NCBI RefSeq assembly: GCF_000689395.1
Contig: NZ_HG966617.1
Location: 2,540,221 to 2,604,220, forward strand
Origin: Candidatus Phaeomarinobacter ectocarpi
GTDB lineage: Bacteria > Pseudomonadota > Alphaproteobacteria > CGMCC-115125
Length of the DNA: 64,000 nt
Direction of reading: 5' to 3'
The notes beneath the pieces were generated by a model, which was not told the origin of the DNA, made no database searches, and saw only the letters and a list, made by a program, of their open reading frames with translations. Positions 13,304 through 45,839 of this stretch are shown here, one piece after another; the stretch's first letter is position 1, and each line of letters begins with the position of its first letter. A program made the position numbers and the translations under genes.

Positions 13304-13318
13304 TGGCACAAGGCTTGA
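13304..13318 (+). promoter_or_regulatory. Near-consensus sigma-54 (-24/-12) element upstream of the ExoY-like gene
   Basis: TGGCAC, 5 bp, then TTGA at the spacing of a sigma-54 promoter; the consensus has TTGC. The single mismatch falls in the normally conserved -12 GC. It lies 45 bp before the chosen ATG at 13363. The 323-bp gap 13040-13362 otherwise holds no gene I recognise. Confidence 0.35.
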
Positions 13319-13362
13319 TCTGTAACCAGCAGTCATTAACGCGCTTGAGAGGCATCCCCCCA

Positions 13363-14157
13363 ATGTCTGCACTGCTGAAAAACAACGCTGAAGTCGCCCT
13401 GCCGCTTGGTTCTGCTGAAGAAACGGCACGCCCCCTTCCCCGTTACATTGCCCGTCGCGACGCTGCCTATGCAGTTCTGACGGCTGAAACACCTGCAACT
13501 CTGCGCCCCGCCGCGCGCATTCACGCGGTAGATGCCAACACATCCACCCTACGCGAAATCACCATCCGCACGCTGGACGTACTGGGCGCAATCGCCGGCC
13601 TCATTCTCGCAGCACCCATCATGATGGTTGTGGCTTTCCTCATCATGCGCGACGGCGGCTCAGCCTTCTTTGGCCAGACCCGCGTTGGCCAGCAGGGCCG
13701 CGGCTTCAACTGCTTTAAGCTGCGTTCCATGGCGTCGGATGCCGAAGCACGCCTCCAGACACTTCTCGACAATGACCCGCAGGCTGCTGCTGAGTGGGCC
13801 GAGCACCGCAAGCTCAAGAACGACCCACGCATCACCAAGCTTGGTCACTTCATCCGCAAGACCAGCATTGATGAGCTGCCCCAGCTCTGGAACGTCCTCA
13901 AAGGTGACATGAGCCTCGTTGGCCCGCGCCCGATCGTTCCTGATGAGCTGGCCATGTATGGCAAGGATGCTGCCGGCTACCTGTCTGTCCGCCCTGGCCT
14001 CACAGGTCTGTGGCAGGTCTCAGGCCGCAGCGACTGCGATTACAAAACACGTATTGCTCTGGACGTTGAATGGACCGAGATCCGCACTGTCGCGTCTTAC
14101 CTTGAAATCATTTTCAAGACGGTTCCCGCAGTGCTCGCCAAAGAGGGCGCTTACTAA
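13363..14157 (+). CDS. ExoY-like undecaprenyl-phosphate sugar phosphotransferase
   Basis: Starts polysaccharide repeat assembly by moving a sugar-1-phosphate (glucose or galactose type) to undecaprenyl phosphate. One membrane segment ([20 protein letters not shown], about residues 69-88) precedes the cytoplasmic catalytic domain. That domain has [30 protein letters not shown] and LVGPRPIV, then [13 protein letters not shown]. The domain set is of the short ExoY/WbaP-C type without the four extra membrane helices. The open frame begins at TTG 13303, but ATG 13363 has a GAGAGG ribosome site and fits better. A second, longer initiating enzyme lies at 43131. Confidence 0.9.
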
Positions 14158-36321: not shown

Positions 36322-37758
36322 CTAAGTGCGTATCTTAGTAGTAGCACCGGCCAGCGCCACCCCAAGCACAACCGAAAAGGTCAACGCGACGGCAGGAACC
36401 GATACACTAAAATCGAAAACAGAGTGAAGGCCCACCTGGGCCATCACTGCGAGACCACAGGCGGGTAAAACAGTTCCCGCCTTTCGGGCCGTCCCCGCCA
36501 GCAGTTTACGACCGAGCAGCACAAATCCAAGAATTGTTACCAGCGCAACCGGCAGCCCCGCGCCAGCAGCAAGCTCCAGAAATTCATTGTGCATGTAATC
36601 AACTTGAAACAGGGCATATTCCGTTGACGCATAAAGGAAATATGTCTGTTCAAACGCGCCAACACCATGACCAAGGAACGGCCGGTCTTCAATAGCCTGC
36701 AATCCGATATCCATAAGGCTTTTTCTGAAGCCAAGCACCGCAGGCGTTGCCAGCAGGCGGGTAAGCAGCGGATAGCCTGCCAACATGAGCAACCCGCTGG
36801 CAACAGACATTCCTGTGACCCAAGGTATGATAACAGGTTTGCTGGATGATCGCCCAAAGGCTCGCATCAGGACAAGAAGTAGGGCAACACCGATCAGCGT
36901 TGTAGCAACCCCAGCACGCGACCCACTCAACAACAGGGCACAGAACATGACCGCACAGCCGATCAGGTAAACTGATTCCTGCCCGAGAAAACGCTCGATA
37001 CTGTCGCGCAACGCCCGGCGTATCGTGGTCGGCATCCGGAGCCCCCTAGCAACCATATGGTGCCGCCACAGGGCGACCAGACACACCAGCCCCATTCCCA
37101 CAAAGGTGGCAAAGTGATTGCGGTTTACAAAAGGCCCGTTTGCACTAGACAGGTCCGTTGGATAGGGCATCACTGCAGGATGGACAGCAAAGTGCTGGCG
37201 AGCAGCAAGTTCTAGCAGGCCGTATGCACCATAGAACACGCCCGCTACGGCTACGACACGCAGTAGATGCAGCCCGAACGAGGCCCTGTAAACCGCGGCC
37301 GCCCAGGCCCCAACGCCAATTGTTAGATAGGAAAGGAGCCGGACTGCACTATTGGCGGACATATCCGGCGCAACCGAAATCGCTGCGTCGGGTGGGATAC
37401 CATTGGCGCCTCCAAAGGAAATAAACCATGCAGGATGAAACCAGGATGCAGGAACGAGGTTTGAAGTCTGCACCATCGCCCAAACCGGCAGGGAAAGAAG
37501 GCAGAGTACACCCAACCGCAAACCGGCGCTTCTGTGCGCAAGCTGACGTTCTTGAGCGACGGGCGCAAACGCGAGAACGCCCATGAGGAGTGCCAACAGC
37601 GAAGCTGCCAGTGCAATGGCTGCCCACCCCCAGTCACGGTGTGACCCAAGCGGCAGCGGCGTTAACATCACGAGCAACCCGAGAACCGCAACCATAACCC
37701 AAGCACTGCCACGCCAGACAGCCGTAGGGCGATTCGTATGACGACGGCGATCAACCAT
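36322..37758 (-). CDS. O-antigen ligase family membrane protein (Wzy/WaaL-like)
   Basis: About 11-12 hydrophobic helices. It opens with AWVMVAVLGLLVMLTPLPLG and has a large periplasmic loop. NGPFVNRNHFATFVGMGLVC is the Wzy_C-type core motif (F-x-N-x-N-H-F/Y-A), then LLSGSRAGVATTLIGVALLL and DRPFLGHGVGAFEQTYFLYA. This fits O-antigen ligase or polymerase. It polymerizes or ligates lipid-linked repeats on the periplasmic side. ATG 37758 overlaps the preceding stop by 8 bp; GTG 37770 is an alternative. 478 residues. A second, different Wzy-like protein is at 56051. Confidence 0.85.
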   Translation of the reverse strand: MVDRRRHTNRPTAVWRGSAWVMVAVLGLLVMLTPLPLGSHRDWGWAAIALAASLLALLMGVLAFAPVAQERQLAHRSAGLRLGVLCLLSLPVWAMVQTSNLVPASWFHPAWFISFGGANGIPPDAAISVAPDMSANSAVRLLSYLTIGVGAWAAAVYRASFGLHLLRVVAVAGVFYGAYGLLELAARQHFAVHPAVMPYPTDLSSANGPFVNRNHFATFVGMGLVCLVALWRHHMVARGLRMPTTIRRALRDSIERFLGQESVYLIGCAVMFCALLLSGSRAGVATTLIGVALLLVLMRAFGRSSSKPVIIPWVTGMSVASGLLMLAGYPLLTRLLATPAVLGFRKSLMDIGLQAIEDRPFLGHGVGAFEQTYFLYASTEYALFQVDYMHNEFLELAAGAGLPVALVTILGFVLLGRKLLAGTARKAGTVLPACGLAVMAQVGLHSVFDFSVSVPAVALTFSVVLGVALAGATTKIRT

Positions 37759-38392
37759 TGGGAAATGCACGTTCCAGGATGTGCACCGAATAAGGCGGGC
37801 TGTAACCTCGCCGAAGAGCCTGGCGACCGTCGGCGCTTATCCAGGCTTCCCGAACCATCCGCAACACACCTTGTTGCGCCGAGATTGAAAGGTCCGGCCA
37901 GGCCCGCGCGGCAGCCTCGAACTTCACCTGTGTGAGATAGATAGCATGAGGCGCATATGTTTGGGCCATGCGCAACGCATGATCTGTATCCTGTCCGCGC
38001 TCGGCGAAAAAAGAAGTGGCCCATGCAAGCCGCGCCCAGGCAATCCCATCTGCCGGGCGTCGAGCAAGTTGATGACGGAGCACACTGATAGCACCTTCTA
38101 GATAAGTGCTTCGGGCTTCCATACCTCTTTGGTGAGCACGTTCGGCGAGAAACAAGAACGCGGTCGCGCTATCATGTTGCCACTCAGCCGAGGCGGCCGC
38201 GTCTCTGGCTGCCCCCACCAGTTTTCCTGTGGATACCGCGTCGCGCCGCTGCAGCAGCTCGGCCAGCGTGATGCCGTCAAGTGCATTCCGCGCCCGATCC
38301 ATGCCGGAGAAAAAAAGGAAAGCTGCGATTGCGCCACACAATCCGCATAGCAGTACGCGAGGAGCCGACATCGATTCAATCAATTGTATCAC
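37751..38392 (-). CDS. Membrane-anchored helical-repeat protein of unknown function
   Basis: One N-terminal membrane helix (VLLCGLCGAIAAFLFFSG, about residues 13-30), then alternating helices with an Ala/Arg/Leu-rich, TPR-like pattern (AWARLAWATSFFAERGQDTD, HALRMAQTYAPHAIYL). I recognise no family. It lies between wzc and the O-antigen ligase and overlaps both; its GTG start and the wzc stop share GTGA. So it is coupled to both and probably belongs to the polymerization or chain-length apparatus. ATG 38371 is an alternative start. 213 residues from GTG. Confidence 0.7.
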   Translation of the reverse strand: MIQLIESMSAPRVLLCGLCGAIAAFLFFSGMDRARNALDGITLAELLQRRDAVSTGKLVGAARDAAASAEWQHDSATAFLFLAERAHQRGMEARSTYLEGAISVLRHQLARRPADGIAWARLAWATSFFAERGQDTDHALRMAQTYAPHAIYLTQVKFEAAARAWPDLSISAQQGVLRMVREAWISADGRQALRRGYSPPYSVHILERAFPNG

Positions 38393-40599
38393 GACGTATA
38401 GTAGTGACCATATTTTGAGTACTCACCATAGCCATATTCATAAAGTGAATGGCGGCGCACGTCTGCCCGGGTGAGAACCGCACCCAACAGCGGAGCCGAG
38501 TTTTCGCGCAATTGTAGCATCGATTTCTCCACTGCTTCCCGGCTGGTCTCATCCCAACGTACCGCCAGCAACGACATATCCACGTAACTGAGGAGATGCC
38601 GTGTATCGTTGACGGGCAGGAGAGGTGCTGAATCTATGATGACGATATCGAAAACACGAGCCATTTCCTCAACCAGGCGGCGCATTGCGTCCGATTGAAC
38701 AATCATCGGAGGATTGGCCGGCGGTTTGAGGACTGGCAGAATGTACAGCGGCGATTCCGGGTCTTTGTGCATCGCCTCTTCAAGCGGCGTCGCGCCGGAG
38801 AGGTAGTCCATAAGCCCAACCTCCCAGCGATTTTGATCCAGCAGCTTTGCGATGGACGGCCTGCGCAGATCAGCTTCCAGAAGTAGGGTCTTCTTGCCCA
38901 TGCCCGCATAAAGGCGCGCTAGGGACAATGATAATACCGACTTGCCTTCTGCTGACGTCGCAGAGGTCACCACAATCGTCTTCACGGTCTTGTCGACATC
39001 TGAGACCATCAAGGCGGTCTGGATGCTGCGGATCGCTTCTGTATAGGCAGAGAGTGGTTCCGTGATCGGCATTTTCGCGGCAGCAGTCCCGGACGAGGCC
39101 CCGCCCTCGGGCACCACCGCCACTACAGGTATATCGAGCGCGGTTTCAAGCTGACTGGCAGTGCGGAAGCCCTTGTCCAACTTTTCGACCATGAAGGCAA
39201 TAATGAATGCCAATGCCATGCTTGCGGGGATTGAAACAGTAAAAATCTGGCGGCGGTTGGGCCGCACCGGCACAGTCGGCGCCGCTGCCGGAGATATCAC
39301 CCTTGCATCCGGTGTCTGGACACCCTCGGTCTGCTGCATCTCTTTGAGGCGTGTGAGCATACTGTCATGCAGGGCTCGGGTGGATTCTACTTCGCGCTCC
39401 AGATCGCGCAACTGAATGCGCGCGCGGTCCTGCTCCGACGTTGCCCCCTGCACATCTTCTAGGCTGGTCTGAATGACGCCCACCCGGGCGCGCATAATTT
39501 CCGCATCATTCTGCAGCCGCTGCTTCACCCTGTTTACTTCCTGCGCGATTTTCGCCGCCAGATCCTGCTGTTCCGCACGAAGGTCAGTAATCTTCGGGTG
39601 CTTGGGCCCGTATCTGTTTGAATACTCCGCCGCTTGGCGGCGCAGTTGTGCCTCCTGGCCGCGCAGCTGGGAAATGATTCCCGACGCCAAAACCTCTGAA
39701 AGACTATCTAGTTGTATACGGCCGCCCGATGCTCGGTTGATCTGCCTCAGCTGTGCCTCGGCGGCAGCCAACTGGGCTTTTTCTGTCGTCAGCTGAGCGC
39801 TCAGAGTTGAAAGCCGCTGGGCAGTCAATGAAACCCCATTTGCCTCAAACAGATTGTTCTCCATCCGGAACGCTTCAACGGCACCTTCTGCGACAGCAAG
39901 CTGGTCTGCTAGATCATTGATCCGCACCGTGAGCCACTCGGTCGCCTTGCGCGTTGCATCAAACTTGGCGTTGAGTTGTTCGAGCACGTAAAGATTGGCA
40001 ACGGAGTTGGCAATCTGTGCTGCCAAGGCCGGTTTAGTGGATTCAGCGCTGATGCTGATAACCGTGGAGCCGCCGACTGTCCGAACGCTCAGCGCAGAGC
40101 GAAGCTTGTTGACCACCCCAATCCGCTCAGGGCTAAGGAGATCTGTTTCGTCCCGTAGGGCTGCAGCGGAATTGAGTACTGGCTCGGCTGGAGCGGTGTC
40201 CGGCTCGTCAGCCGCAACTGTCTCCGCCAAGGTCAAGTTGAAATCCGGATTGGACATCAAGCCGATGTCTTCGATCACCCGCAACAGCAGGCTGCGAGAC
40301 CGAATGATTTGAATTTGAGTCTGCATGGTAGTCTGGTTTGCTTCCAGCCCAGGCAACACCTGCTGAATATCCACCACCTGCTGTTCACGCGAATCGATTA
40401 GCACTCGGGCATCAGCCTGATAGACCGGCACAAGCTGCGCCACCCACGTGATGGTGACGGCCAGACAAACGACAAACGTACCCAGAATGATCCAGCGGCG
40501 GCTTATCGCCAGTTCACGTATGGCCTTGAAATCAAATGGATTATCTGCGGCGTCTCCAGCCAACGATGAAAGGTTTCGTACAGTTGTTTCTTCGTTCAT
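38389..40599 (-). CDS. wzc: Wzc-like polysaccharide co-polymerase with tyrosine autokinase domain
   Basis: Inner-membrane PCP-2a protein of 736 residues. It has a Wzz domain with the first helix at ~35-55 (WIILGTFVVCLAVTITWVAQ), a long periplasmic coiled coil (~200-420), and a second helix near 465. The cytoplasmic bacterial tyrosine-kinase domain has Walker A SATSAEGKSVLSLSLARLYA (~545), Walker A' LLEADLRRPSI and Walker B IVIIDSAPLLPVND. The C-terminus is a tyrosine cluster, YEYGYGEYSKYGHYY. It controls chain length and export through cycling phosphorylation. The ligand is presumably the short OPX protein. The gene has its own upstream gap at 40600-40768. Confidence 0.93.
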   Translation of the reverse strand: MNEETTVRNLSSLAGDAADNPFDFKAIRELAISRRWIILGTFVVCLAVTITWVAQLVPVYQADARVLIDSREQQVVDIQQVLPGLEANQTTMQTQIQIIRSRSLLLRVIEDIGLMSNPDFNLTLAETVAADEPDTAPAEPVLNSAAALRDETDLLSPERIGVVNKLRSALSVRTVGGSTVISISAESTKPALAAQIANSVANLYVLEQLNAKFDATRKATEWLTVRINDLADQLAVAEGAVEAFRMENNLFEANGVSLTAQRLSTLSAQLTTEKAQLAAAEAQLRQINRASGGRIQLDSLSEVLASGIISQLRGQEAQLRRQAAEYSNRYGPKHPKITDLRAEQQDLAAKIAQEVNRVKQRLQNDAEIMRARVGVIQTSLEDVQGATSEQDRARIQLRDLEREVESTRALHDSMLTRLKEMQQTEGVQTPDARVISPAAAPTVPVRPNRRQIFTVSIPASMALAFIIAFMVEKLDKGFRTASQLETALDIPVVAVVPEGGASSGTAAAKMPITEPLSAYTEAIRSIQTALMVSDVDKTVKTIVVTSATSAEGKSVLSLSLARLYAGMGKKTLLLEADLRRPSIAKLLDQNRWEVGLMDYLSGATPLEEAMHKDPESPLYILPVLKPPANPPMIVQSDAMRRLVEEMARVFDIVIIDSAPLLPVNDTRHLLSYVDMSLLAVRWDETSREAVEKSMLQLRENSAPLLGAVLTRADVRRHSLYEYGYGEYSKYGHYYTS

Positions 40600-40768
40600 C
40601 TGAGAAGCTTACACGCCCAACACTTGACCACATAAAAGGAAACTGCCGGCCACAGGTCTCAATGCCGCAGCGGACAGTAGCAGAAGTCATTCACCACAGG
40701 CGTCGCACAGGTCTACCAACTACATAGATCATCGGTCGCGAAGCACCGACTCCCTACGCACATAACTT

Positions 40769-42019
40769 TCAGAGTGAAAGTCGCAAGCCAAATGTGACTG
40801 TATTTTCATCATAGTCCGACGCGTTCACACTCGAATCCCGGTCGGTGTGATCGTAGCTCAGCACTGCCGCGACATTGTTGGTGAATGCATATGAGGCCCC
40901 AACACCGGCTGTAATCAGGTCGTCTGAGCGTCCTGTGCCTTCAAACTCGGAATTGGTGTAGTTCACGTCTGCGTCGACCGTCAAATTCCGGAGAATGCGC
41001 CAGTCAAGTGCCAAACCACCGGAATGATCAAGACTGCCACTTGCACCAGCAATGATGGTTTCCTCGACAGAGCGGGATCCGCTGGCCGTTACGGTAAGTA
41101 ACGGTGTTGCAGACCATTCTAATTCGACATTGTAATCCACTCCATCGATGTCGGGTAGAGTCGAGTCATCATATTGCCGCTCGAAATAACCAACACCAAT
41201 TTCACCAACGATTAGTCGAGAAACTTCAAACTGGATACCAGCAAGGACACTAACTTCCTCGGAGTCACGATTGACGCCACTGCGATCCAATGTCCGGTCG
41301 AAGTCGGTTCCCGTATAGGTACCACGCAGAAACCAAGTATATTCCTCTAAAAATTCGTAGCTAACTTCGCCCATTGCGAAATGGGAGTCCCGATCGCGGT
41401 CATTGTTGTCCACGATGCCGCCGTTGTTCAACGTCTCAGTATCGTAGTCCACAAAGCCGTAGCCGCCACCGGCAGCAACACCGAACCTGTTGGGCTGATA
41501 AGAAACAATCGCAGAGGTATCAAATTCCTGGAAACGGGGAGGTTCTGAAACCGACACTGGCACATCCGGGGCACCGCGCGATTCATGGTCAATTGCGTAC
41601 GCAATCGTGGTGTCGACCGACAGCCCTCGAGATAGGTCTAGCTTGCCGTTCGATTCCGCAAAGAAATTGACGACGTCTTCACTATCTTCCGAAAAGAACT
41701 TTTGGGCATCAAGGTCAAGCAGCAGATCCACCTCATGGCGCGCGAAATTAGACGCCACATAAACACTGGGCGACACCAAGTAGAACCCATCTTCGGTCGT
41801 GTTACCGCTGGTCTGGAAGGTGTTGTCGGTAAACCCCACGCCGGCCTCAACAGAGGGATAGATGATAAATTGCCCGACACGCACGCCAATGGGGTTATAG
41901 GACTCATCAAAGCCAAACGGGTCAATGAGACTGTCCGCGAATGCCGGTGCGGCAAGCCCCACCGTTACAACGCCCACTGCCACCAACATCCCGCAACGGC
42001 TGGATTGAGTATTCTTCAT
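40769..42019 (-). CDS. Outer-membrane beta-barrel protein, likely polysaccharide secretion porin
   Basis: Signal peptide from ATG 42019 (MLVAVGVVTVGLAAPAFA, then DSLI) with GGGGGC 7 bp before that ATG. Upstream in-frame ATGs at 42034 and 42064 give atypical heads. After residue ~40 (GVRVGQFIIYPSVEAGVGFT) comes a run of about 18 amphipathic strands ending TVTFGLRLSL. This resembles the BBP2-type barrels found in exopolysaccharide loci. It may provide the outer-membrane channel that the short OPX protein at 35712 lacks. It is followed closely on the minus strand after the small secreted protein at 42124. 416 residues. Confidence 0.8.
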   Translation of the reverse strand: MKNTQSSRCGMLVAVGVVTVGLAAPAFADSLIDPFGFDESYNPIGVRVGQFIIYPSVEAGVGFTDNTFQTSGNTTEDGFYLVSPSVYVASNFARHEVDLLLDLDAQKFFSEDSEDVVNFFAESNGKLDLSRGLSVDTTIAYAIDHESRGAPDVPVSVSEPPRFQEFDTSAIVSYQPNRFGVAAGGGYGFVDYDTETLNNGGIVDNNDRDRDSHFAMGEVSYEFLEEYTWFLRGTYTGTDFDRTLDRSGVNRDSEEVSVLAGIQFEVSRLIVGEIGVGYFERQYDDSTLPDIDGVDYNVELEWSATPLLTVTASGSRSVEETIIAGASGSLDHSGGLALDWRILRNLTVDADVNYTNSEFEGTGRSDDLITAGVGASYAFTNNVAAVLSYDHTDRDSSVNASDYDENTVTFGLRLSL

Positions 42020-42123
42020 GTATTTTGCCCCCATAGACCCCCGCAGCGAACACACCCGGCGCATCTAAGCAAATTTAACAAATCGTCGGGCGCCAACGAA
42101 GGCAGCCACTTGGCTTCACCAGA

Positions 42124-42696
42124 TCACGAACCACTTGGTGTGGGCGGATCAGAACTGCTAAACTGGTTGATATCTGACTGCCGGCCCGGCCCGCTCGGGA
42201 TGGCAGCAGTGTTGATCGTCGTGCCAACTTCCTGGGCGGCTGCCAAAATTATGGCCTCCACGTCTGTGTAGCCTGCACCCTCTAGCGCCTCAGCGAGCGC
42301 CAAAACGGTTGCATCGCCACTGTCTGCGGCGAGAACCGTTTCCGCCACCGCGCTGGCATTTCCATTGTTTGCCAGAACGGTCGGCAGCAACTCATCAACC
42401 AACTCAGGATCCAGCGCCATGATAACAGTTAGGATATCGAGCGCCTCTTGGCAGTTTGCGCCACCAGGACAAGCCGCCTCAATGGCCGCATTGCCAGCAG
42501 CTGCCAGCTGGCTAGAAGTGGCCTCACTAATGGTTGTCGGCTGCCCCGTCAGAGCGGCCAATTGAAGCTCAACTGCACTTTGTGCTTCGAGCAACCCTGT
42601 TGATTGAGCATTAGCCGACGCGCTCAACGCCACGAGCAATGCTACCGTCACGGCAACCAAGTGCCCAACACGACGCACTTCTGCAAAAACAGGCAT
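42124..42696 (-). CDS. Small secreted alanine-rich protein of unknown function
   Basis: ATG 42696 is chosen for its TTGGGG ribosome site; an upstream TTG gives an unlikely head. Signal peptide HLVAVTVALLVALSASANA, then QSTGL. The mature part (~160 residues) is Ala/Leu-rich and helical, with one Cys pair (CPGGANC), and has a polar Ser/Pro-rich tail. Not recognised. It lies 104 bp before the barrel gene on the same strand and may be a periplasmic helper of the exporter. The 434-bp gap upstream (42697-43130) carries the divergent promoter region listed separately. Confidence 0.65.
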   Translation of the reverse strand: MPVFAEVRRVGHLVAVTVALLVALSASANAQSTGLLEAQSAVELQLAALTGQPTTISEATSSQLAAAGNAAIEAACPGGANCQEALDILTVIMALDPELVDELLPTVLANNGNASAVAETVLAADSGDATVLALAEALEGAGYTDVEAIILAAAQEVGTTINTAAIPSGPGRQSDINQFSSSDPPTPSGS

Positions 42697-43014
42697 AGCT
42701 GGCCCCAATTCTTCTATACACTCGGACTTCGTAGATCCATTGCTCAAAATTCAAGATCTACTTAGCACGGCGCATGCCCCGCGACAATCTTAACTAATGG
42801 TTAACGCGACATATTGCGATGCCGGCGTCGTAGATTTGCCTTGATGATTGCTATTAATCCGCGACACAAAAATGCTCACCCGTCGACGCACAGCCGGAAG
42901 TAGCAAGCAACAACTACCCACAGGTGCTTGCAACGCATTGGAATGTCGGTCATTTTTTACGCTTGGCCAACCTGCCTAAACTCGGCTCAGCCGGGGATTG
43001 TAGCGTCATGCCAA

Positions 43015-43030
43015 GTGCCAGACATGGCAC
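43015..43030. repeat. Perfect inverted repeat overlapping the upstream sigma-54 element
   Basis: GTGCCA (43015-43020), GACA, TGGCAC (43025-43030). The right half is the -24 element of the first sigma-54 promoter. A second inverted repeat, TTAAC-TAATG-GTTAA, lies at 42790-42804 and could be an activator site. Confidence 0.45.
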
Positions 43031-43039
43031 GGATATTGC
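43025..43039 (+). promoter_or_regulatory. Sigma-54 promoter P1 of the WcaJ-like gene
   Basis: TGGCAC-GGATA-TTGC, followed by T: an exact match to the -24/-12 consensus including the spacing and the flanking G and T. Expected transcription start about 43051, 80 bp before ATG 43131. Confidence 0.75.
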
Positions 43040-43058
43040 TCAATTTGTCAACGCTGGT

Positions 43059-43073
43059 TGGCACTGGAGTTGC
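43059..43073 (+). promoter_or_regulatory. Sigma-54 promoter P2 of the WcaJ-like gene
   Basis: TGGCAC-TGGAG-TTGC: an exact -24/-12 core, placed 34 bp after P1. Expected transcription start about 43085. The tandem arrangement makes chance unlikely. Confidence 0.7.
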
Positions 43074-43130
43074 GAAGCTATCACACTTGCTTTACCCGGC
43101 AGCGCCAATTGACAGTGCACGCAGGAGAGG

Positions 43131-44657
43131 ATGACAGAGGGTCAGATGGCACATACCTCAGAACGCGAACTGTCGAGCAAGGTGCGTTTGATCCACGATC
43201 TTTTCTGGGTCACGTGCGCTCTCCCGCTTGCGCTGACCCTAAGGCACGCGGAAGCCTTGGACGCAGATTTCTTCACGTCTTCACGGTTTCTGCCTCAGCT
43301 GTACGTTTACATGCCTGTTCTTTGGGCGCTCGCACTTGCCACCTTCTTCTTCACCGGCAGCCATACGAAGCCCTGGCGCGCGGCATCGCACGGCCAGCTT
43401 TTCTACATACTGCGTCTGTCAGCCGTCGTCAGTCTGGGCTTTCTCGGCGTGGCTTTCCTCATTCAGTCGCCTTCAGTTGGCCGGTCAGTCCCATTTCTTT
43501 ATGCCATGGGACTGACCCTGGGTATGATTTTGGGGCACCGGTTGCTGCTGGGCGGCTCGCGCCCTGCTCTCGCCAATCAGAACATGCGCGAATGGGTTCC
43601 CGTCATCATCTTTGGCACGGACCGCTTTGCTGAATTCATGATTTCGATGGCACAGGCCACCCCGTACAACAATCTGTGCCCTGTCGCAGTCGTGTCGGAA
43701 AGTGGTAGGACGCAGGAAAAATTCCTCCATGGGGTGCCTGTTGTCGGGGACGTGGGAAACCTCGACAAGCTAATGCTTGAACTGGCCACCCAGGGCATCC
43801 ATCCCGTTGCTACATGTCGCTCGCCGAAAGTTGAAAACTGGGGCGCGCTGGCGGGCCGCCGTATCGACGACTTCGTTGCTCGCCACCGCCTCAAAGAAAT
43901 CGGTCGCACCGATTTTCTCAGCACCTGCATCGAATCGTCCATAACATCAACTGGCGACGTACCCATGTTGGCGGCGCAGGCACGCACCCATTCGGTCAGC
44001 GAGCTTGTGAAGAGGATACTCGATGTCGCAATTGCGGTGATTGCGACAATTTTATTGCTACCAGTGTTTGCCGCGGTATGGCTCCTAGTAGTGGTGGATA
44101 TGGGCCGGCCGGCAATGTTCGTGCAGGTGCGACCGGGCCGCTACTGCGCGCCTTTCAAGCTCTACAAGTTCCGCACGCTCAAATCAGCTACCGGGCCCGT
44201 CGGCGCGCCCCTCGCCGATGACCTAAGGCAAACCAGAATCGGCCGCGTTCTAAGGCGGTTGAGACTTGATGAACTGCCGCAACTCTTCAACGTCATTGCT
44301 GGGCAGATGTCGTTGGTCGGTCCGCGGCCCTGGGTTTTGACCGACCTTGATGGGCACGGCACTAGTGGTGATTTCCGTTTCCAAATGCGCCCTGGCGTCA
44401 CCGGCTGGGCGCAGGTAAATGGTGGCCGCGTGCTGGATGTCGAAGCGAAGCTCAAATTGGACAGGTGGTACTGCGAGCACGCAAACCTTTGGCTAGACGC
44501 GAGAATTCTGCTGAAAACCATGTGGATCATGTTCGCCGGCGAGCATGTGGACGAAAAAGCCTTGCGCGATGCTGGCATTGATCCGGTGGCGCTATGTGAT
44601 GACAAGGATGGTGGACATCCCGCGCCCATCGACCGTAGCCCTGTGCGCAACATCTAG
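43131..44657 (+). CDS. WcaJ-like undecaprenyl-phosphate sugar phosphotransferase
   Basis: Long-form initiating enzyme of 508 residues. It has an N-terminal block with about four membrane helices (for example QLYVYMPVLWALALATFFFT), then a CoA-binding-like Rossmann region (VPVIIFGTDRFAEFMIS). The C-terminal sugar-transferase domain follows one more helix (~300-325). It contains [42 protein letters not shown] and RPGVTGWAQVNGGRVLD. It loads the first sugar on undecaprenyl phosphate. ATG 43131 directly follows GGAGAGG; ATG 43146 has GAGGG. Two sigma-54 elements precede it, so its expression should depend on RpoN and an activator. Confidence 0.92.
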   Translation: MTEGQMAHTSERELSSKVRLIHDLFWVTCALPLALTLRHAEALDADFFTSSRFLPQLYVYMPVLWALALATFFFTGSHTKPWRAASHGQLFYILRLSAVVSLGFLGVAFLIQSPSVGRSVPFLYAMGLTLGMILGHRLLLGGSRPALANQNMREWVPVIIFGTDRFAEFMISMAQATPYNNLCPVAVVSESGRTQEKFLHGVPVVGDVGNLDKLMLELATQGIHPVATCRSPKVENWGALAGRRIDDFVARHRLKEIGRTDFLSTCIESSITSTGDVPMLAAQARTHSVSELVKRILDVAIAVIATILLLPVFAAVWLLVVVDMGRPAMFVQVRPGRYCAPFKLYKFRTLKSATGPVGAPLADDLRQTRIGRVLRRLRLDELPQLFNVIAGQMSLVGPRPWVLTDLDGHGTSGDFRFQMRPGVTGWAQVNGGRVLDVEAKLKLDRWYCEHANLWLDARILLKTMWIMFAGEHVDEKALRDAGIDPVALCDDKDGGHPAPIDRSPVRNI

Positions 44658-44699: not shown

Positions 44700-45839
44700 T
44701 TAGTCACAATCCGGCTCCATGCACATCCGAGTAGCATGCCCATTCCCAGCCAGTTCCTCCAAAGACGTCAATAGCGCCTCCACCGCGGCCACCGGACAAT
44801 TACGGTAGAATACTCCACGAGCCTCAGCCTCACCGGCCAGAAGATGTACATCGGAGTTACGACTTCCCACGTAAATCAACGGTTTGCCTGAAGCCAAGCA
44901 TCCATATATTTTCGACGGAAGCACGAATCCCACAAAGTCGTCTTTAAGCGTTATGAGGTGCGCGTCAGGGGTGACAAGCAGGCTAGCAAGCTCGTCAAGG
45001 GGCACTGGTTTACCGCGCACATATGGCAGACCGTCCGCCTGCAGAGCTTCTTCAACAGTTCGCGCACCGGCCCCCAAAGCATTCAGCCACAGAACAACAC
45101 GCCCGGACCCGCGCTTGTGATGCTGCCGGTAGGCTTCTATGAATGTCTGTGTATCATGCGCTACTCCCCAATTACCGGAATATAGCAGCAAGACGGCCCC
45201 CTCATATCCATCGGGTCGTTCCAGCGGCAGTGTTTGGCTTGTGATCTCAACCGGTGAGGGGTCACGCTTAATCTCAATGCGGGATTCAGGAATGCCGATG
45301 TCCTTGAGCCGTTCGCGCTGATCTTCCCCCAACGCCTCGAAATGGTGAATGTGGCGGCGCCAGAACACCGTGACACGATACAAAGCCTTGAGCAGCAGAC
45401 CACCGCCGCCACGTTCCGCCATTATGCATTCCGGGTGGAAATCGGTGATCCGGTAGATTATGCGCTTGCGCAACAGTATGTTCAGTGGCACCAGAAAATG
45501 GATCAAAAAGGGCGGGCTTCCGGTGAAGAGTATGTCATCGGCCTCGCGCAAATGGCGCCATACGCGGGTGATCAGCTTTGTATTGACCCTAAGCGTCCAA
45601 AGCGCCCGCTCCCGCAGGCTACCCTTGTCATATTTTTCCGCCTTGAGACGGATGATTTCCAGCGACCCGTTAGGAGCATCAACGCGCACACTGGAATCTA
45701 CTGTTGATGAAAGGCCCGCCAGCACCACATCATATCCGCGCGCCATCCAATCGCGAGCGAAAAGCACACTGTATTGCCCTACGGCCCCGAAATCTGGTGG
45801 TAGCCAGTCACAAAAATAAACAAGTTTGCGGTGCTTCAT
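44700..45839 (-). CDS. Glycosyltransferase, GT4 (WcaI-like)
   Basis: Starts KLVYFCDWLPPDFGAVGQYS, a WcaI-type N-terminus with DWLPPDFGAVGQ. IIYRITDFHPECIMAERGGG lies in the N-domain, and VLLLYSGNWGVAHDTQTFIE begins the C-domain. FVGFVLPSKIYGCLASGKPL is the donor-site region. 379 residues. Tail-to-tail with the WcaJ-like gene. It is last in the long minus-strand operon, 53 bp after the FkbM gene at 45893. Confidence 0.86.
   Translation of the reverse strand: MKHRKLVYFCDWLPPDFGAVGQYSVLFARDWMARGYDVVLAGLSSTVDSSVRVDAPNGSLEIIRLKAEKYDKGSLRERALWTLRVNTKLITRVWRHLREADDILFTGSPPFLIHFLVPLNILLRKRIIYRITDFHPECIMAERGGGGLLLKALYRVTVFWRRHIHHFEALGEDQRERLKDIGIPESRIEIKRDPSPVEITSQTLPLERPDGYEGAVLLLYSGNWGVAHDTQTFIEAYRQHHKRGSGRVVLWLNALGAGARTVEEALQADGLPYVRGKPVPLDELASLLVTPDAHLITLKDDFVGFVLPSKIYGCLASGKPLIYVGSRNSDVHLLAGEAEARGVFYRNCPVAAVEALLTSLEELAGNGHATRMCMEPDCD

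Follow-up and report, generated by a model that had tools for sequence, protein, structure and literature searches.

Tandem sigma-54 sites and the probable place of an initiating sugar-phosphate transferase gene in a TacA-like attachment regulon of Candidatus Phaeomarinobacter ectocarpi

The whole stretch of DNA analysed here (the window, 64 kb, G000:C1:2540221-2604220) carries at positions 43131-44657 of its forward strand a gene for an initiating sugar-phosphate transferase of 508 aa, whose C-terminal PF02397 (Bac_transf) domain scores 183.3 bits against a cut-off of 27. An earlier reading of the same DNA (the sequence-only reading) had called this enzyme WcaJ-like. It does share its broad family and length class with WcaJ; however, its score with the WcaJ model (TIGR03023) is 208.8 bits, well under the NCBIfam cut-off of 410.75. 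HfsE (NF050817, score 111 with a cut-off of 750), WbaP and the general EPS subfamily were likewise rejected, the last two also on their NCBIfam cut-offs. Because the protein is below the WcaJ, WbaP, HfsE and general EPS cut-offs, it is best named an initiating sugar-phosphate transferase, and we refer to it as the long transferase.

The long transferase gene, with the ribosome-binding sequence AGGAGAGG directly before its ATG at 43131, is expected to be transcribed alone, as the next gene on its 3' side (44700-45839) is convergent on the opposite strand and a divergent operon lies on its other side. This export/polymer operon (36322-42747, reverse strand) has five genes, encoding a secreted protein (42124-42747, start uncertain), a beta-barrel BBP2_2 protein, a Wzc-type kinase, an uncharacterised protein of 213 aa and a Wzy-like protein. 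The long transferase gene is part of a large exopolysaccharide cluster containing export, polymerase, flippase and glycosyltransferase genes, and not of the hfs-like cluster described below. At 28-32 kb and 44.7-57.5 kb of the window, the exopolysaccharide cluster holds genes for a sulfotransferase, a carbamoyltransferase, several methyltransferases and an acyltransferase; other genes are found there in the sister species G002.

Two sigma-54 sites precede the gene on the forward strand, both directed toward its ATG and both having TGGCAC and TTGC with the five intervening bases expected of a sigma-54 promoter. The upstream site, TGGCAC-N5-TTGC(T), occupies positions 43025-43039 (TGGCACGGATATTGC), and the downstream site, TGGCAC-N5-TTGC(G), occupies positions 43059-43073 (TGGCACTGGAGTTGC). 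They lie 34 bp apart, start to start, and begin 106 and 72 bp upstream of the ATG, with the second ending 58 bp upstream of it. These positions and distances agree with those given by the sequence-only reading, which was also correct in noting that the first site carries the flanking bases of the full consensus (it reads TGGCACG-N4-TTGCT) and that its -24 half lies within a perfect inverted repeat, GTGCCA-gaca-TGGCAC (43015-43030, forward strand). Most simply, the two would serve as tandem -24/-12 promoters of the single-gene unit 43131-44657, with predicted starts near 43050 and 43084 and leaders of approximately 80 and 46 bases. There is, however, close to an even chance that one motif only is a promoter, the other being a weak site or a decoy, at which polymerase is held or by which the first promoter is blocked. 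The first motif matches 11 of the 11 scored positions and the second 10, and two closed complexes this near to each other (34 bp) might interfere; on the other hand, neither motif deviates from the ten core bases, and both predicted leaders are of ordinary length.

Other elements are present farther upstream. An inverted repeat, GTAGCAAGCA-N15-TGCTTGCAAC (90%; 42900-42934, forward strand), is located some 90-125 bp 5' of the first -24 element and is marked as a possible activator site by its position only; it is not common to the partner promoters considered below. A CtrA box (TTAACTAATGGTTAAC, 42790-42805, forward strand) is a full match to TTAA-N7-TTAA, and indeed a perfect TTAA-N7-TTAAC, with about 12 such places in the genome. 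Approximately 220 bp separate it from the motifs downstream of it; it falls in the gap that divides the transferase gene from the divergent exopolysaccharide operon, nearer to the operon.

The genome (G000) has only two PF02397 genes, and a sigma-54-like site precedes each of them. The second gene encodes a short initiating sugar-phosphate transferase (13363-14157, forward strand), the one found genus-wide, and its site, TGGCACAAGGCTTGAT (13304-13319, forward strand), has the form TGGCAY-N5-TTGAT. This site is kept in all four genomes of the genus, with one extra change in G003, inside an upstream region that is otherwise variable. The -12 element usually has GC, and since the TTGAT ending departs from this, the site is weaker evidence. 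Each genome of the genus has one short initiating transferase, while an extra long one is present in G000 and a different long one in G002. The latter is non-orthologous, lies in a matching cluster and has TGGCCCACCAATTGCT upstream, at 197 bp before its start, which is farther than usual. Both long transferases are preceded by TGGCMC-N5-TTGCT. The three congeners have no ortholog of the long transferase studied here, and a wider genome scan gave remote relatives only; as the congeners are without an ortholog, a direct conservation argument for its promoter is impossible.

The same motif is found before genes for holdfast anchoring and modification. The holdfast anchor operon (hfaAB plus an HfaD-like gene; genome positions 1854690-1857235) has TGGCACGGCCATTGCT, one of six TGGCMC-N5-TTGCW matches genome-wide, about 55 bp before the start of hfaA, and the HfaB gene follows. 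HfaA (76.4 bits, cut-off 50) and HfaB (393.4 bits, cut-off 300) both pass their NCBIfam cut-offs, and the third, HfaD-like product is below its own. The hfaA site is also present in two congeners and six other genomes, and these sites span several families with diverged flanks. A search of plasmids for HfaB gave distant relatives only. In the genus, TGTCCC..GGGACA-type dyads lie about 120-145 bp upstream of hfaA. A TGTCCC-N5-GGGACA dyad, seen at the genus hfaA and at the short transferase, was not found at the long-transferase promoter in the window, and this absence rules it out as an upstream activator dyad shared by the whole set.

A perfect TGGCAC-N5-TTGC also starts 55 bp before a gene for an HfsK-like GNAT protein (PF13480), which is divergent from that for an HfsH-like deacetylase, and this site is kept in all four genomes of the genus. 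Just 5' of it, the block GATTGCCAAGCGATTGACG is conserved in congeners (slightly changed in G001) and is a possible activator site. A site before a second acetyltransferase gene (L086:1968) was set aside as it is not conserved in congeners. The hfs-like cluster (1.574-1.591 Mb), to which the HfsK-like gene belongs, contains genes for an HfsH-like deacetylase, GNAT proteins, cupin-like proteins, a flippase, Wza, a Wzc-like protein, a glycosyltransferase and a polymerase, and no initiating transferase was seen in it.

These arrangements bear on which polymer the long transferase serves. Sigma-54 control could be real while the role of the enzyme is confined to the exopolysaccharide of its own cluster, much as in floc or biofilm loci under RpoN control, and we give this an appreciable chance, though one somewhat short of even. 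The gene adjoins that cluster's genes for export, polymerase, flippase and glycosyltransferase, and RpoN-dependent genes are known in floc/biofilm loci (PMC9850573). Against such a restricted role, the hfs-like cluster has no visible initiating transferase of its own, the only two PF02397 genes of the genome both have sigma-54-like sites, and enzymes of this type act redundantly in making the Caulobacter holdfast (PMC6372794).

RpoN is encoded in G000 and in all three congeners. A strong Sigma54_activat domain was found in four proteins of the genome, all encoded outside the window, so the sequence-only reading was right that the 64 kb hold no gene for an enhancer-binding protein. Three of them, NtrC, NtrX and FlbD, pass NCBIfam cut-offs; the fourth passes none. 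The latter is a receiver-AAA+-HTH protein of 504 aa encoded approximately 150 kb away. An activator with the GAFTGA loop is available, as this motif is present in both FlbD and the fourth protein, while NtrC has GSFTGA and NtrX is without it. The enhancer-binding proteins of Caulobacter are of the same four kinds, NtrC, NtrX, FlbD and TacA (PMC10274813), and we therefore take the fourth protein to be TacA-like, by elimination rather than by comparison with the Caulobacter TacA sequence. The sequence-only reading had suggested looking elsewhere in the genome for a PrsR-like activator; a PrsR-type activator was rejected, as none of the four proteins reaches the TIGR02915 cut-off (best 385.1 bits, with 502.6 required).

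The fourth activator forms a single clade with its orthologs, at 58-99% identity. Every other genome with the hfaA site has this activator, at 63-99% identity. G083 has HfaB and no hfaA site; the fourth activator is absent from it (at most 42% identity over the full length), and a FlbD-like protein is present. No copy was seen in G003, but this genome is fragmented and 81% complete. The activator is present in G066, where the region upstream of hfaA is masked, and in G032 and G036, from which HfaB is absent. A TacA-like activator acting on hfaA would fit this co-occurrence, which is a correlation only and is confounded by relatedness.

If real, the sigma-54 promoters might alternatively be driven by FlbD, tying the transferase to flagellar assembly and not to a TacA-like programme. 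FlbD is above its cut-off and has GAFTGA, and TGGCCCGGGGCTTGCT lies upstream of a hook-like flagellar gene; hook-type flagellar genes are sigma-54 dependent in Caulobacter. However, FlbD-like proteins are also present in genomes without the hfaA site, such as G083, while the fourth activator tracks the site, and we consider control by FlbD unlikely.

Motif counts on their own say little. In the 64-kb window there are two perfect TGGCAC-N5-TTGC motifs, compared with 0.39 expected (two or more occurred in 4 of 100 shuffles). Their tandem placement is rare: the expected number of same-strand pairs no more than 60 bp apart is about 0.0006. The genome as a whole (3,415,905 bp), however, has 9 perfect motifs, compared with 7 matches to a reversed control pattern and about 7.8 expected from base composition. 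Because the genome count is near chance, a single match means little, and some of the nine fall within coding DNA. Matches at 617621 (inside a gene) and at 1069938 (within a Mu-like prophage region, likely chance) were discarded; genes of a Mu-like transposable prophage occupy 1062-1078 kb of the genome. Enrichment was dropped as an argument, since the number of motifs is close to that expected by chance and, in the loci that were read, other spacer lengths yield comparable totals. The genome-wide scan proposed by the sequence-only reading thus had a divided outcome: hfaA and the HfsK-like gene do share the motif, while the total is about what chance would give. Many equally good hits at random sites had been named as evidence against sigma-54 control, and the raw counts go half way toward this; the claim survives because the sites are conserved at partner genes.

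This conservation is specific to the spacing. The motif was scored, with a hit defined as at least 10 of the 11 scored positions, in 17 upstream regions of orthologous or analogous genes, none of which had served in its discovery. Ten of them belong to hfaA genes of other genomes; the HfsK-like gene and the short transferase contribute three each, all from congeners, and the last is that of the long transferase of G002. With the N5 spacing, 14 of the 17 regions had a hit, among them hfaA regions from several other families, those of both transferases of a sister species and those of short-transferase orthologs, whereas each of ten other spacings gave 0-1 of 17; the three misses at N5 include one masked sequence and one region scoring 9. 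The 17 regions are not all independent, as congeners share ancestry, and that of the G002 long transferase is the least so, having been spotted by eye beforehand. It is improbable that the motifs in the window arose by chance and that a housekeeping or CtrA-linked promoter serves the long transferase instead, for although nine perfect motifs are about the chance number, some being in coding DNA, and a CtrA box lies upstream, the pair is in tandem at the right spacing and distance, the motif is conserved at related genes, and no sigma-70-like site was found in the promoter region.

Sigma-54 control of the long transferase is well supported, if indirectly: the genome encodes RpoN and activators, and functionally related genes are preceded by conserved, equal sites of identical spacing. 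Membership of the gene in the attachment programme is probable, and we propose, with moderate confidence, that the tandem RpoN promoter pair places this initiating sugar-phosphate transferase (43131-44657) in a TacA-like, Caulobacter-type attachment regulon. According to this proposal: transcription of the long transferase would depend on RpoN and an activator bound upstream, the best candidate being the fourth enhancer-binding protein, a TacA-like response regulator; the enzyme would put the first sugar-phosphate on the lipid carrier; the same regulon would include hfaAB(D), the HfsK-like holdfast-modifying acetyltransferase and the second initiating transferase; and polymer initiation would be switched on together with attachment. 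We infer that the promoters are active, that this activator acts on them, and that the enzyme feeds the holdfast rather than, or besides, the local exopolysaccharide. Several observations weigh against the proposal: the lack of an ortholog in the three congeners, motif counts close to chance, the dyad of hfaA and the short transferase that this promoter does not have, the location of the gene in the exopolysaccharide cluster, and the GAFTGA of FlbD, which could itself be the activator.

A broader suggestion is offered tentatively, as one that may well prove wrong: a TacA-like sigma-54 regulon across several alphaproteobacterial families might directly switch on holdfast anchoring, modification and priming transferases, and, if a swapped-in accessory priming transferase again carries a sigma-54 promoter, priming might be a conserved control point. 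What is known of how holdfast genes are timed relative to the swarmer-to-stalk switch comes mainly from Caulobacter, in which TacA and RpoN affect adhesion by a route mapped only in part. With a conserved sigma-54 site located directly before hfaA, and before other surface-polymer genes, in several families, there is a direct, testable path from activator to glue.

Among known systems, the PrsK-PrsR/RpoN system of PEP-CTERM loci is similar in having sigma-54 promoters near exopolysaccharide genes, and the mapped pepA promoter of the PEP-CTERM system has TGGCAC (PMC9850573). It differs in that here no activator is above the PrsR cut-off and the outer-membrane protein is far below the PEP-CTERM-associated models. 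Thus, of the earlier view that a sigma-54-controlled exopolysaccharide gene lies here, as in PrsR-type systems, the sigma-54 part is supported by RpoN, the activators and the partner-gene sites, while the PrsR/PEP-CTERM parallel fails on the model cut-offs. Priming of the Caulobacter holdfast is shared redundantly by HfsE, PssY and PssZ (PMC6372794), and the two PF02397 proteins in one genome here recall this redundant set, although the HfsE cut-off is missed. The nearest parallel is the RpoN/TacA (ShkA-ShpA-TacA) swarmer-to-stalk and holdfast programme of Caulobacter crescentus. In Caulobacter, the RpoN motif GGCNC-N4-CTTGC marks swarmer-to-stalk and flagellar start sites, including that of spmX (PMC4287350), and a screen for flagellum-triggered adhesion identified tacA and rpoN (PMC7885107). 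Direct sites at hfaA, the HfsK-like gene and the initiating transferases set the present case apart, with Caulobacter hfaA standing outside this comparison, whereas the RpoN motif, the set of four activators (if the fourth is indeed of the TacA kind) and the link to holdfast are common to both.
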